From positions 1 to 64,000 of the forward strand of contig CACHVY010000001.1 of NCBI GenBank assembly GCA_902583455.1: a stretch of DNA of 64,000 bases, read 5' to 3'. The notes under the pieces are model-generated. The model worked only from the letters and a program-made list of their open reading frames with translations. It was not told where the DNA came from and searched no databases. A program made the translations under genes and the position numbers. The stretch comes from an uncultured Pelagibacteraceae bacterium (GTDB lineage: Bacteria; Pseudomonadota; Alphaproteobacteria; Pelagibacterales; Pelagibacteraceae). Shown here piece after piece: positions 19,754 through 24,775 of the stretch (position 1 is the first letter of the stretch; every line of letters starts with the position of its first letter).

Positions 19754-20818
19754 TTAATTTTTAGCTTGTTTTGAGGTTGGTATATTTAATTTTTCAACAT
19801 TCTCATTTTTTGATGCTATTTCAACTTGTTCGGGATCTTTAATATTTCCAAGTGTATTCATTATAGATCTTGCATCTCTTCCAAAACTATCAGTAGCTTG
19901 CATGGCTTGTTCTAATTTTTTTCTGAGTTCTTTTATACCATCGAAATGTTTTTCGAATCTTGAGCTTATATTTCTTAAATCACTATAAATTTGTGTAGCA
20001 TGTTGTTGAACTTTGAGTGTTTGAAATCCTAAATGATAGGATTGTAATAAAGCAGATAAAGTGTTAGGGCCGGAAATTGTAACTTTATATTTGGTTCTTA
20101 ACTCCTGTAAAAGTAGCTCTTTAGTTTTAGGGTCTCTATAGCTAGAGAGTTCTGAAAATAATCCCTCAGTTGGAACATAAACAATTGCAAAATCTGTACT
20201 TTTCGGCGGTGCTATATATTTTGCGTTAACAGTTTTAGCCTTTAACCTAAAAGCTGATGCTAAATCTTTCCTGGCCTCTGCTTGTGCATCTTTGTCATTA
20301 GCATTATATGCATCATCAATTGCTTTATATTTTTCAACAGGCCAGTGACTATCAATTGGCAACATCACATCTTGAAGTTTAATTGCAAACTCTACTGTTT
20401 CTGATGTGTCCTCTTTCATTTTAGCATTTGCGATATATTGAGATGATGGTAACAAATCTTTTAGGAGTGCACCTAATCCAAATTCCGCAAGAGTTCCATA
20501 TGATTTTACACCACTCAAAATTCTACTAAAATTATCTTGGCTTTTGTTTAACTCACTTACTTGTTGATTAAAAACTGATACTTTTTCATCAACTTTTGTA
20601 AGGGCACCTGTCATATCTTTTGCTATTTCTTTGCTCATCGACCCAAAAGATTGGCTAAATGTATTTTTTAATGAACTTAATTCGTCTTTAAAAATTTGTT
20701 CGTTGTTAACTGGCTCAGGTTGTTTACGCTTAATTAGAAAAACAATTGCTAAGAAATTACCAAGAAGCAAAATAATAATTAAAATTGTAAGTAACGATTC
20801 CATTCCCACACTATACAT
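19754..20818 (-). CDS. rmuC: DNA recombination protein RmuC
   Basis: N-terminal TM, coiled coil, VMLPIDSHWPVEKYK, IVYVPTEGLFSEL, GPNTLSALL. Confidence 0.9.
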   Translation of the reverse strand: MYSVGMESLLTILIIILLLGNFLAIVFLIKRKQPEPVNNEQIFKDELSSLKNTFSQSFGSMSKEIAKDMTGALTKVDEKVSVFNQQVSELNKSQDNFSRILSGVKSYGTLAEFGLGALLKDLLPSSQYIANAKMKEDTSETVEFAIKLQDVMLPIDSHWPVEKYKAIDDAYNANDKDAQAEARKDLASAFRLKAKTVNAKYIAPPKSTDFAIVYVPTEGLFSELSSYRDPKTKELLLQELRTKYKVTISGPNTLSALLQSYHLGFQTLKVQQHATQIYSDLRNISSRFEKHFDGIKELRKKLEQAMQATDSFGRDARSIMNTLGNIKDPEQVEIASKNENVEKLNIPTSKQAKN

Positions 20819-21494
20819 TTTTATTAAGTTTATTTATAATATTAAAAATACCTCTCTTTTTTTGGCTTTTTTGAGAAATCATTAAACACGCTTGAGATTT
20901 AAGAATTACTCCGTCTTTTAATACTCTTAAATTATTAGCTCTTAAAGTTTCCCCTGTTGAAGTGATATCTGTTATAATTTCTGACGAACCTGTGAATGGA
21001 TATATTTCTGTTGCACCAAGACTTTTTACAATTTTAAATTGTGTAACACCTCTTTCAAACATAAAATTTGTTGTTAAGTTTGGATACTTTGTTGCCACTC
21101 TTAATCTAGTTTTTTTTTTCTCTTTAAAATCAAATGCAATTTCCTCCAAATCAGCTATTGTTTGAACATCAATCCAATCATCAGGAATTGCGATTACTAG
21201 ATTAGCTTTACCGAAAGTATATTTTTTTTTCACTATTATTTTTTTTTGCACATTAATTACACTTTCTTTTAATAGATCAAACCCTGAAAAACCAATATCC
21301 AAAGTTCCGTCTCCTAATCTTTCAACGATTTCTCTAGCGTGTAAATAAGTAATATTTAAATTTTTATATCCTTTAACAGACCCTAATAGATCTCTCTCTC
21401 CTCTTTCAGATTTAAGTTGTAAATTATTTTTTGAAAAAATTTTTAATATATCTTTTCTTAATCTGCCTTTGCTGGGAATTCCAATATTAATCAT
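20811..21494 (-). CDS. hisG: ATP phosphoribosyltransferase catalytic subunit
   Basis: NIGIPSKGRL; LRVATKYPNLT; short form. Confidence 0.93.
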   Translation of the reverse strand: MINIGIPSKGRLRKDILKIFSKNNLQLKSERGERDLLGSVKGYKNLNITYLHAREIVERLGDGTLDIGFSGFDLLKESVINVQKKIIVKKKYTFGKANLVIAIPDDWIDVQTIADLEEIAFDFKEKKKTRLRVATKYPNLTTNFMFERGVTQFKIVKSLGATEIYPFTGSSEIITDITSTGETLRANNLRVLKDGVILKSQACLMISQKSQKKRGIFNIINKLNKNV

Positions 21495-22539
21495 TTAAAT
21501 TTATAGCTGCTCCAACTGCTGGTATTTTTTTATTTGATCCAAGATCGCCAATAAGATTATCGTATCTTCCACCATTAATAATGTTAATTTTATTAGATTT
21601 AATTTTAACATCAATTTTGAAGACTAGGCCTGTGTAATATTCTAATTGCCTTCCAAAAGATGCTGAATATTTTATATTTAATCTTGAAAATTTATTTTTA
21701 GAGATCGGAAAATAATTTTTTTCTACTCTTAAATTAATTTTATGTTTTTTAAAAAAAAAGTTTAATTTGTTAAATGCTTCGCTGATTGGACAATCAATTT
21801 TAAGAAATTCTTTTATTATTTTTGCAACATTTTTTCCTTTTTGAGGTCTTCTAGGATCATTTATCTTATTATTAAATCTGTTTAGAATCTCATCAAGTGA
21901 TCTACCAGCAATAATTTTTGATTGTTTTTGTTTAAGCATTGCTTCATATTTTTTTTTATCTATTTCTACAATAGTCGGATCTACATCAGAATTAGTCTCC
22001 AATCTTTTTAACAAATCATTAAAATATTTTTCTCTCCAAAAATGTCTTTGAAGTCTCAATCTCCATCTTTTAGGGATATCCAATTTAGTCAATAGGAGTT
22101 TAAATATTTCTATGTTTCCAATAGTCAAAACGCCAGATGAAAATTTTACTTTCGATAATGATTTAACAGCTGTATTAATAATTTTTTTATCGTCATCTTT
22201 TTCCTTGTTTGAGCCAATTATTTCAAAACCAATTTGATTTCTTATTATACTATCTGATATCTTTTGAGTTTTTCTAAAAGCTTGTCCACTGTAAAATACT
22301 TTTTTAGATGTTTTATTTTTCTCATTTAAATACTTTAGACATGATGCAATTGTTAAGTCTGGTCTAAGACAAATTTCATTACCCTTCTGATCATTAAAAG
22401 AAAAAATAAAACGCCTAAATGACTCACCAGATCTTTCAACAATATGTTTCGTTTCTATTACAGTATCTAAATTAATATACCTAAAGCCCTCTGATTTTAT
22501 TAACTTTAATATATTTTCAGATAATTTTTTTGATTTCAT
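21487..22539 (-). CDS. hisZ: ATP phosphoribosyltransferase regulatory subunit HisZ-like (HisRS paralogue)
   Basis: Class II aaRS-like (EICLRPDLTIASCLKYL, YYTGLVFKI, GGRYDNLIGDLG) between hisS and hisG; internal Met used as start. Confidence 0.85.
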   Translation of the reverse strand: MKSKKLSENILKLIKSEGFRYINLDTVIETKHIVERSGESFRRFIFSFNDQKGNEICLRPDLTIASCLKYLNEKNKTSKKVFYSGQAFRKTQKISDSIIRNQIGFEIIGSNKEKDDDKKIINTAVKSLSKVKFSSGVLTIGNIEIFKLLLTKLDIPKRWRLRLQRHFWREKYFNDLLKRLETNSDVDPTIVEIDKKKYEAMLKQKQSKIIAGRSLDEILNRFNNKINDPRRPQKGKNVAKIIKEFLKIDCPISEAFNKLNFFFKKHKINLRVEKNYFPISKNKFSRLNIKYSASFGRQLEYYTGLVFKIDVKIKSNKINIINGGRYDNLIGDLGSNKKIPAVGAAINLND

Positions 22540-23851
22540 TAACAATGTTCTCATCTTTAATATTAGTTTCTTTTCCGGTTCTTAGATCTTTTATTTTAAC
22601 TTCTGATTTTTTTATTTCTTCTTCGCCAACAAAAATTACACAAGGACAGCCAATTTTATTAGCATACTCCATTTGTTTTTTTATTTTTCCCTCACCAGGG
22701 TAAATCTCTGAATTAATATTTTCCGATCTAAGTTTCTTTAGTATTTCTATATATTTTTTCATATTGTTTTGATCAAAGACACTAATCATTACAGGGCGCG
22801 TAACTTTTAAATCAAATTCTTTTTTTTGCATTAGTGCAAACACAAGTCTATCTATACCTACTGATATGCCAGTTGCTGGATAATCAAGATTACCAAAATT
22901 GCTCACTAAATTGTCGTATCTACCTCCACCTCCTATTGATCCAAATTGAATAACTTGACCTTTTAAATTTTTTACATTGAAATTTAGATTAACTTCAAAT
23001 ATTGGGCCTGTGTAGTACTCTAAACCTCTTATTACCGAAGGATCGAACTTATAGTTGTCAAATTTATAATCTTTAAAGATTTTTATTATTTGTTTTAAAT
23101 CCTCGCTCTCAGGTGAGTTAACATTCAAAGAGCTTTCAATAACTTTAATTTGATCATTGTCTAATTCTGCTCCTTTAGTGTAATCTCCTGATTTATCTTT
23201 TCTACCTTCACCTAGTAATTTTTTAACTTCTGTCCACCCTAACCTATCTATTTTATCTAAAGCTCGAAGAATTATAGAAATTTTTTCCTGCGATTGAATT
23301 TCTAGTTTTTTGAATAATTCATCCGTAATTTTCCTAGATGATATTTTGATTGTGTAGTCATTTTTAGTTAAGCCACAATTTTCTAAAATTTCTGATATCA
23401 TTACACATAGTTCTGCATCTGCCTGTAAATTTTTTGTACCTACGTAATCAGCATCGAACTGAAGAAACTCTCTATATCTTCCCGGTCCAGGTTTTTCATT
23501 CCTCCACACTGTACCTAATTGATAGCGTTTAAAAGGTTTCGGTATTTCATTAAAATTTTTTGCAACATATCTCGCCAGGGGTGCTGTTAAATCATAACGT
23601 AAAGATAACCATCTATTTTCGTCTTTAAAAGAAAATACACCTTCTCCAGGCCTTTCTTTATCAGGTAAAAATTTACCTATACTTTCAGTATATTCAAAAC
23701 TTGGGGTTTCAAGATATTGAAAGCCATACTTAACCATTACCTCTTTAATCTTTGAAATTATGAAGTCTCTGATTAAAAGCTCTTTTTCTTTTCTATCTTC
23801 AAAACCTGAAGGTAATTCCTTTAGAGGTTTTATTTTTTTTTGTTTTTCCAT
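22517..23851 (-). CDS. hisS: histidyl-tRNA synthetase, alphaproteobacterial/eukaryote-like type
   Basis: LRYDLTAPLARYVA; FKRYQLGTVWRNEKPGPGRYREFLQFDADYVG; GLEYYTGPIFEV. Listed ORF runs through tRNA-His, so start placed at ATG 23851. Confidence 0.95.
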   Translation of the reverse strand: MEKQKKIKPLKELPSGFEDRKEKELLIRDFIISKIKEVMVKYGFQYLETPSFEYTESIGKFLPDKERPGEGVFSFKDENRWLSLRYDLTAPLARYVAKNFNEIPKPFKRYQLGTVWRNEKPGPGRYREFLQFDADYVGTKNLQADAELCVMISEILENCGLTKNDYTIKISSRKITDELFKKLEIQSQEKISIILRALDKIDRLGWTEVKKLLGEGRKDKSGDYTKGAELDNDQIKVIESSLNVNSPESEDLKQIIKIFKDYKFDNYKFDPSVIRGLEYYTGPIFEVNLNFNVKNLKGQVIQFGSIGGGGRYDNLVSNFGNLDYPATGISVGIDRLVFALMQKKEFDLKVTRPVMISVFDQNNMKKYIEILKKLRSENINSEIYPGEGKIKKQMEYANKIGCPCVIFVGEEEIKKSEVKIKDLRTGKETNIKDENIVNEIKKII

Positions 23852-23855
23852 TTTT

Positions 23856-23932
23856 TGGTACACGGGGACAGATTCGAACTGTCGACCTTCGGTTCCACAA
23901 ACCGCTGCTCTAACCAACTGAGCTACCCGTGC
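23856..23932 (-). tRNA. tRNA-His (anticodon GTG), CCA encoded
   Basis: gcacggg ta gctc agttggtta gagc ... gcggt TTGTGGA accga ... gacag TTCGAAT ctgtc cccgtgt A CCA; full cloverleaf. Confidence 0.93.
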
Positions 23933-23983
23933 TCCTATCTTTGTTTTATACTAATTGTGGATATTTTTAAATTTATATAATGA

Positions 23984-24058
23984 TTAAATAGCTAGCGTGC
24001 AGCCAGCATGAAAATGGTGTCTGTGAGATAATGTTAAACTTTTAATAATTTCAATCAT
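23984..24058 (-). CDS. candidate His-rich leader peptide, 24 aa: MIEIIKSLTLSHRHHFHAGCTLAI
   Basis: Read codon by codon from the reverse complement: cac aga cac cat ttt cat = H R H H F H; 51 nt upstream of tRNA-His-hisS-hisZ-hisG; not in the ORF track. Confidence 0.5.
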   Translation of the reverse strand: MIEIIKSLTLSHRHHFHAGCTLAI

Positions 24059-24078
24059 TGCGATTTAATTAACAGTTT

Positions 24079-24147
24079 AAAAAAAAAAATCAACAGTTGA
24101 TTGTATAGGAATAAAATCAGCTTTTGAGCTTGCTTATCCCTATACAA
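24079..24147 (-). terminator. cspA 3' structure: long hairpin then short hairpin with poly-T (minus strand)
   Basis: TTGTATAGGAATAA...TTATCCCTATACAA inverted repeat (24101-24147, one mismatch), then AATCAACTGTTGATT followed by a T-run on the minus strand. Confidence 0.7.
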
Positions 24148-24166
24148 TTATTTTGATGAATTAGAA

Positions 24167-24376
24167 TTAAGAGGTTTTTTGCAGTTTTACTGCGGCAGGA
24201 CCTTTTTCTCCGTCTTCAACTTCAAATGTAAGCTCGTCACCTTCGTTTAAGAATCTTAAACCTGCTTCTCTTACAGCTGAAGCATGTACGAATACATCTT
24301 TTTCTTTGTCTTCTCGCTCAATGAAACCATAACCTTTTTTTCCATTGAACCACTTTACTTTACCTTTTAGACTCAT
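24167..24376 (-). CDS. cold shock protein, CspA family
   Basis: [32 protein letters not shown]. Confidence 0.97.
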
Positions 24377-24402
24377 TTTACTCTTTCGTTAGTTATTATA
24401 CT

Positions 24403-24419
24403 TAAGCTTATTAAGCTTA
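24403..24419 (-). promoter_or_regulatory. hairpin in the cspA 5' region
   Basis: TAAGCTT-AAT-AAGCTTA perfect 7-bp stem, 26 nt upstream of the cspA start, no T-run after it. Confidence 0.45.
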
Positions 24420-24483
24420 GTGGGTTGTTATTAGATTTCTAAATTTAATGCAAGCAATTTAAATTGACTTAATGTCACTTTGG

Positions 24484-24558
24484 TGGTGGCCTTGGTAAGA
24501 ATCGCACTTACGACACATACCTTTTCAGGGTACTGCTCTACTACTGAGCTACAAGGCC
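24484..24558 (-). tRNA. tRNA-Phe (anticodon GAA), CCA encoded
   Basis: ggccttg ta gctc ... gtacc CTGAAAA ggtat ... gtaag TGCGATT cttac caaggcc A CCA. Confidence 0.93.
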
Positions 24559-24559
24559 A

Positions 24560-24775
24560 TTAAAATCTAAAAATGATACGCCCTTTTGTTAAATCGTAGG
24601 GAGTAACCTCAACTGTAACGTTATCTCCTTGCAAAACCCTAATTCTGTTTTTTCTTAGCTTTCCTGCAGTGTGTGCAGTTACAATATGATTGTTTTCTAG
24701 CTTTACTCTAAACATTGCATTGGGTAAAAGATCTATAACTTTTCCTTTAAATTCTAAAGAGTCTTGCTTTGACAA
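24560..24775 (-). CDS. infA: translation initiation factor IF-1
   Basis: [58 protein letters not shown]. Confidence 0.96.

Follow-up and report, generated by a model that had tools for sequence, protein, structure and literature searches.

In E. coli, expression of the aminoacyl-tRNA synthetase operon pheST is governed by attenuation through the PheM leader peptide, and a synthetase operon is likewise the subject of the present work, though PheM concerns phenylalanine, relies on a classical terminator and involves no tRNA gene. SAR11 bacteria, in which the locus described here resides, rank among the ocean's most abundant cells and are believed to possess few transcriptional regulators. For histidine, the nearest published relatives that we found are the leader peptides predicted in Bacillus upstream of hisZ and a hisS paralog (Naville and Gautheret 2010, PMC2965389). 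These resemble the SAR11 locus in placing a His-rich short ORF upstream of hisS-family genes, whereas they belong to another phylum, were found via an intrinsic terminator and, in the passages considered, are described with no mention of a tRNA gene or a leaderless start; the authors describe the leaders of Firmicutes and Proteobacteria as being without similarity. An alphaproteobacterial precedent for a leaderless leader peptide is offered by trpL of S. meliloti (rnTrpL/peTrpL), where the leader RNA starts at the ATG (PMC7298713), though this leader serves tryptophan, controls trpE(G) and acts through alternative antiterminator and terminator structures. Our search of the open-access literature, with subscription journals outside its scope, found no description of a SAR11 histidine leader, and the main text of Meyer et al. 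2009 on structured RNAs of Pelagibacter (PMC2704228) mentions neither a his leader nor a leader peptide.

Here we analyzed 64,000 nucleotides of DNA from an uncultured Pelagibacteraceae bacterium (the window). The sequence evidence makes it likely, in our judgment, that a translated, leaderless histidine leader peptide senses charged tRNA-His via ribosome stalling and controls tRNA-His-hisS-hisZ-hisG in SAR11. As in ribosome-mediated attenuators, a short ORF enriched in His codons, judged to be coding from its sequence, lies upstream of histidine genes, and a positioned structure, in the form of a covarying stem, directly follows the last His codon; from this arrangement we infer attenuation as the mechanism.

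The leader reading frame and its conservation

The leader and the genes that follow it occupy these positions:

23984..24058, minus strand: hisS leader peptide ORF and proposed histidine sensor, MIEIIKSLTLSHRHHFHAGCTLAI followed by a stop codon; ATG, frame and His cluster conserved
24008..24025, minus strand: His cluster, codons 12-17, CAC AGA CAC CAT TTT CAT, encoding HRHHFH
23856..23932, minus strand: tRNA-His (GTG anticodon), the first gene past the leader
22517..23851, minus strand: hisS, histidine--tRNA ligase (TIGR00442, above cut-off), with its ATG 4 nt past the tRNA CCA
21487..22539, minus strand: hisZ, ATP phosphoribosyltransferase regulatory subunit, overlapping hisS
20811..21494, minus strand: hisG, ATP phosphoribosyltransferase (TIGR00070, above cut-off), overlapping hisZ

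The best match of hisZ among the NCBIfam models is NF008953, at 352 bits and under the curated cut-off of 384. A preliminary description of this DNA had proposed a His-rich, 24-codon ORF on the minus strand with four His in six codons, and translation reproduces it, with His at codons 12, 14, 15 and 17; the 51 nt that it gave between the ORF and tRNA-His are exact, and hisS, hisZ and hisG come next on the same strand, as it had stated. Among ATG-initiated ORFs of 15-45 aa, this is the only one in the window with four or more His within six codons, compared with a mean of 0.02 (1/60) in composition-matched, Markov-resampled windows. Upstream of the leader lies cspA, whose 3' end here is a long hairpin (approximately 24147-24100, ATTGTATAGG...CCTATACAAT); in this group the hairpin has no adjacent U-tract, and other SAR11 genomes carry a hairpin with a T-run at that place.

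Evidence for coding comes from 149 unique hairpin-anchored sequences, every one of which contains an in-frame ATG and none of which is interrupted in frame along the 17 codons that precede the stem; the two other frames contain stops in 128 and 146 of these sequences. Length variants of the leader differ by whole codons, so that the frame is kept. The N-terminal part of the peptide is nearly free to vary (dN/dS ~0.77), while in unique 24-codon leaders His is found at position 15 in 100 of 100 and at position 17 in 98 of 100, and the codons themselves change, CAT:CAC standing at 81:15 for His 14 and TTT:TTC at 80:13 for Phe 16. Start, frame and sensing codons thus appear to matter and the remainder hardly at all, which is the pattern of a leader peptide, and we infer that the ORF is translated.

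The DNA pattern formed by the hairpin and the last His codons occurs in 160 of 399 genomes of the same genus, once per matching genome, and in 29 of the 57 that are at least 90% complete; its reversed control has no match in the 399. All named genomes among the matches listed are Pelagibacteraceae or Pelagibacterales. Two forms of leader accompany this hairpin, one of 24 codons ending in HRHHFHAGC.LAI and a stop, with the hairpin inside the ORF, and one of approximately 33 codons ending in G.HAHFHAG, whose UAA lies in the loop of the hairpin. Same-genus genomes without the pattern were examined via hisS and display the same architecture with other stems, such as MIINITYRETSRSTHRICFHSL with AUAGCC-NNNN-GGCUAU, MIKKIITFRQTHRHFHHGCKAIY with AUGGCU/GGCCAU and MIYKFETSRSTHRLHIHAS with GCAAGC/GCUUGC. 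A HisS-anchored sampling of the order extended the leader to five more genera of this family (e.g., MKNIVLNHTHHHTHAKHGLGN, MIKIYRSTHRHHFHAEHLLGQ, MIIKKRITSTFRAHSHRMHARLLLSL and MLLQINISKTHSHSHRVHAKLLLS; stop codons follow all of these peptides), and conservation of the ATG, the frame and the His codons, the check that had been set beforehand, holds across all five, as does that of the adjacent hairpin. We also fetched 81 distinct same-family loci by HisS similarity alone and asked of each whether it has an ORF opened by ATG, a cluster of two or more His codons and a stem of 6-7 bp that abuts a His codon. The full set of features is present in 80 of the 81 loci and in 0 of 81 reversed upstream sequences; the exception (L275) keeps the ORF and the stem with one His. 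One common leader type, found among others in a complete genome (G419), is limited to two His codons, which speaks against the sensor reading. The preliminary description had allowed that the ORF might be fortuitous, and this architecture, shared by all but one of the HisS-anchored loci, speaks against that view; frame openness, the resampled windows and the reversed controls together rule out a chance ORF.

Promoter, hairpin and transcript start

Upstream of the ATG and between leader and tRNA, the following elements were recognized:

24088..24093, minus strand: -35 element TTGATT of the leader promoter
24066..24071, minus strand: -10 element TAATTA, 16 nt past the -35 element and 7 nt before the ATG
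23991..24007, minus strand: RNA hairpin GCUGGC-UGCAC-GCUAGC, immediately following the last His codon
23980..23988, minus strand: post-hairpin UUUAAUCAU, complementary to the leader start AUGAUUGAA (24058-24050)
23945..23950, minus strand: TATAAA box upstream of tRNA-His

Counted from the A of the leader ATG, a TTG starts at exactly -35 in 128 of the 186 unique upstream regions and at -34 or -36 in 47 more, so that 175 of 186 have the geometry of a leaderless promoter; T, A and A at -13, -12 and -11 each occur in about 0.72 of the sequences. Promoter geometry thus predicts a transcript that begins at the leader AUG or beside it. This placement of the start accounts for the missing Shine-Dalgarno sequence, the lack of which the preliminary description had correctly remarked upon. 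Its TATAAA-type box close to the tRNA is equally real, being present in all 92 unique loci and lying at -16 to -20 of tRNA-His in all but two of them, and in none of the 92 is it paired with a TTG -35 element. The box could serve as a second, weak promoter by which transcription bypasses the leader, or as a processing element. A report linking DnaA to attenuation of the E. coli his operon (PMC10989985) prompted us to read ATCCACA, upstream of the tRNA, as a DnaA box; this reading is not supported, as the window holds 28 matches with at most one mismatch against 21 expected, and it is further weakened by the lack of the motif in several clades.

The hairpin proposed at the end of the ORF (24007..23991, GCTGGC-TGCAC-GCTAGC) is confirmed and covaries between clades. 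In nearly all sequences its stem directly follows the last His codon (offset 0), moving to -1 or -2 when the stem is extended; in a few genera one further His codon sits within the stem-loop. The stem score was passed by 130 of 131 unique sequence windows versus 8 shuffled ones. Counted on a gapless alignment of the 14 distinct stems, since MAFFT alignment with flanks misregistered two stem types, 100% of cells pair and all six stem pairs show double-sided changes between clades, although the few clade stem types make this covariation a handful of independent events that nonetheless affects every pair. Shuffled stems pair at a mean of 77%, and slid alignments lose the covariation signal. Depending on the clade, the stop codon falls after the stem, in its loop or before it.

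The sequence that follows the stem is less uniform. Mean T content in the 8 nt past the stem is 4.5, 2.7, 6.0 and 3.2 in four groups, with no consistent U-tract. The preliminary description had seen no U-rich terminator between ORF and tRNA; for the window itself this did not stand, in that a consensus terminator scan rates the hairpin terminator-like, 5 of the 8 nt behind it being T, whereas for the family it stands in part, the T-rich tail varying between clades. Intrinsic termination is thus plausible in some groups and weak in others, as far as the sequences indicate. We did not find a classical antiterminator/terminator pair, the search turning up only the AT-rich pairing of UUUAAUCAU with AUGAUUGAA, which joins the start codon region to the post-hairpin segment. 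This pairing appears in a predicted fold that is no more stable than shuffles, has an own-versus-swapped advantage in 128 of 173 cases that are not independent, and is absent in one genus; it is only suggestive of a long-range stem that would close the start codon. An Rfam scan of 23700-24700, up to E=5, gave no His_leader and no T-box match, and a known RNA family was ruled out, as only tRNAs and low-scoring chance matches were returned.

Exchange of tRNA-His/hisS and a second family

In most relatives hisS starts 4 nt past the CCA of tRNA-His, in the arrangement CCA-AAAA-ATG (window 23849-23858), and the hisS mRNA would consequently be almost leaderless after tRNA processing. Within one genus, several dissimilar types of tRNA-His are found between leader and hisS (L001-L011, L061-L180), and HisS identity between the most distant types falls to 42-48%. 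HisS identity is uncoupled from that of hisZ, hisG and hisD at the same locus: L124 shows 42% for HisS, 77% for HisZ and 82% for HisG, and L106 shows 82%, 57% and 63%, respectively. Evidently, on these comparisons, the tRNA-His/hisS pair has been replaced in place several times with the leader retained. Such persistence is consistent with a sensor that reads His codons, whichever tRNA-His/HisRS pair serves. At eight loci (L278, L280, L282-L285, L287, L288) the gene between leader and hisS is tRNA-His-like (GCCTTGATGGTGAAATAGTATCACGTCGGTTTGTGGATCCGAAGTCGTAGG...), with a GTG anticodon context and an unusual sequence that ARAGORN does not recognize.

In a second family of the order, tRNA-His is located elsewhere and the leader stands directly before hisS. 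Its peptides (MFKFKHHHYHI, MIKLLHHHYHI and MIVFTHHHIHI, each ending at a stop codon) precede a hairpin in which the two arms vary in concert (GUUCGCUGA/UCAGCGGGC, GUUUGCUGA/UCAGCGAAC). Past this leader hairpin and upstream of hisS, members of the second family (L012-L025, L181-L182) have a conserved ACCCC run and then a U-rich stretch; in some of them the run could pair with the GGGAG Shine-Dalgarno sequence of hisS, hinting at translational control there. The leader does not appear to be a general feature of alphaproteobacterial hisS genes, as 46 hisS loci of other alphaproteobacterial families yielded no leader save one weak chance match with non-ATG starts. When 800 kb of a complete SAR11 genome was scanned for further leaderless leaders of a single amino acid, by a method that misses types with two His codons, no convincing case emerged.

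Proposed mechanism and relation to known systems

We propose that, when His-tRNA is plentiful, the ribosome would read through the leader and leave, allowing the hairpin to form, and the operon would be expressed less. Under a shortage of His-tRNA, the ribosome would wait at the last His codons; with the final one in its A site, its footprint would cover the 5' arm, no hairpin would form, and expression of tRNA-His-hisS-hisZ-hisG would rise. As the output we consider premature transcription termination, or a step of RNA processing or stability, most likely; with the tRNA sitting between, the leader is unlikely to be coupled to translation of hisS. Whereas the stop codon moves between clades, the family retains a His codon at the base of the stem, which suggests that the state of the stem is probably set by waiting at that codon. 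As a counterpoint, a ribosome stopped at the cluster's first His codon would, by footprint arithmetic, leave the hairpin uncovered. A Rho-dependent output was set aside, for although rho is present, a stalled ribosome would expose rather than protect the downstream RNA, making the logic unattractive.

Tentatively, the leader peptide could gate a hairpin that is no terminator but belongs to the leader of a tRNA gene, and act by RNA processing or by pausing of RNA polymerase, with no terminator/antiterminator switch. In a related reading, possible though on balance doubtful, the hairpin, again not a terminator, lies in the 5' leader of the tRNA-His precursor and serves as a processing or stability element gated by the ribosome, such that stalled ribosomes alter the survival of mature tRNA-His and hisS mRNA; this departs from our best explanation solely at the output step. 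It accords with the inconsistent U-tract, with the AU-rich leader and invariant TATAAA box before the tRNA, and with a tRNA that comes first downstream and is followed so closely by hisS that the mRNA would be released by tRNA processing or made by read-through. The second family, where a like leader precedes hisS with no tRNA between, makes tRNA processing an unlikely ancestral target, however, and the T-rich tail is terminator-like in two groups. We regard it as unlikely that the peptide itself acts, as a nascent-chain arrest in cis or in trans, instead of reporting on His-tRNA: RHHFHAG is strongly conserved within one group, and the leaderless S. meliloti trpL leader peptide works in trans (PMC7298713), but other clades share just His codons and a hairpin (SHSHRMHAK, THRICFHSL, HHHYHI) and no common peptide. 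That a DNA or RNA element (operator or hairpin) is the conserved unit and the His-rich ORF its by-product is very improbable, for although GCTGGC...GCTAGC is nearly invariant as DNA in one group and selection on the peptide N-terminus is weak, stops are confined to the other frames, the frame persists through length changes, conserved His and Phe codons undergo synonymous third-position changes, and compensatory changes replace the stem sequence while the His codons stay.

If the ribosome-sensing leader that we favor is real, the supply of tRNA-His, the enzyme that charges it and the opening step of histidine synthesis would be tied to a ribosome waiting at the His codon at the base of a hairpin. 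A sensor before hisS in two families would show ribosome-sensed control of a tRNA, a synthetase and an amino-acid pathway. With no Shine-Dalgarno sequence, a His codon at the hairpin base and a tRNA first in line, it would make a clean test case for the function and evolution of leader peptides, and its retention through repeated exchange of tRNA-His/HisRS adds to that value. Measured against the enterobacterial HisL/his attenuator, the SAR11 leader differs in having no Rfam match, no consistent terminator U-run and no established antiterminator, in its leaderless start, in that tRNA-His and hisS would be controlled first, and in the hairpin abutting the last His codon; it is like that attenuator in its short ORF, its clustered His codons, its nearby hairpin and the histidine-metabolism genes that lie downstream.
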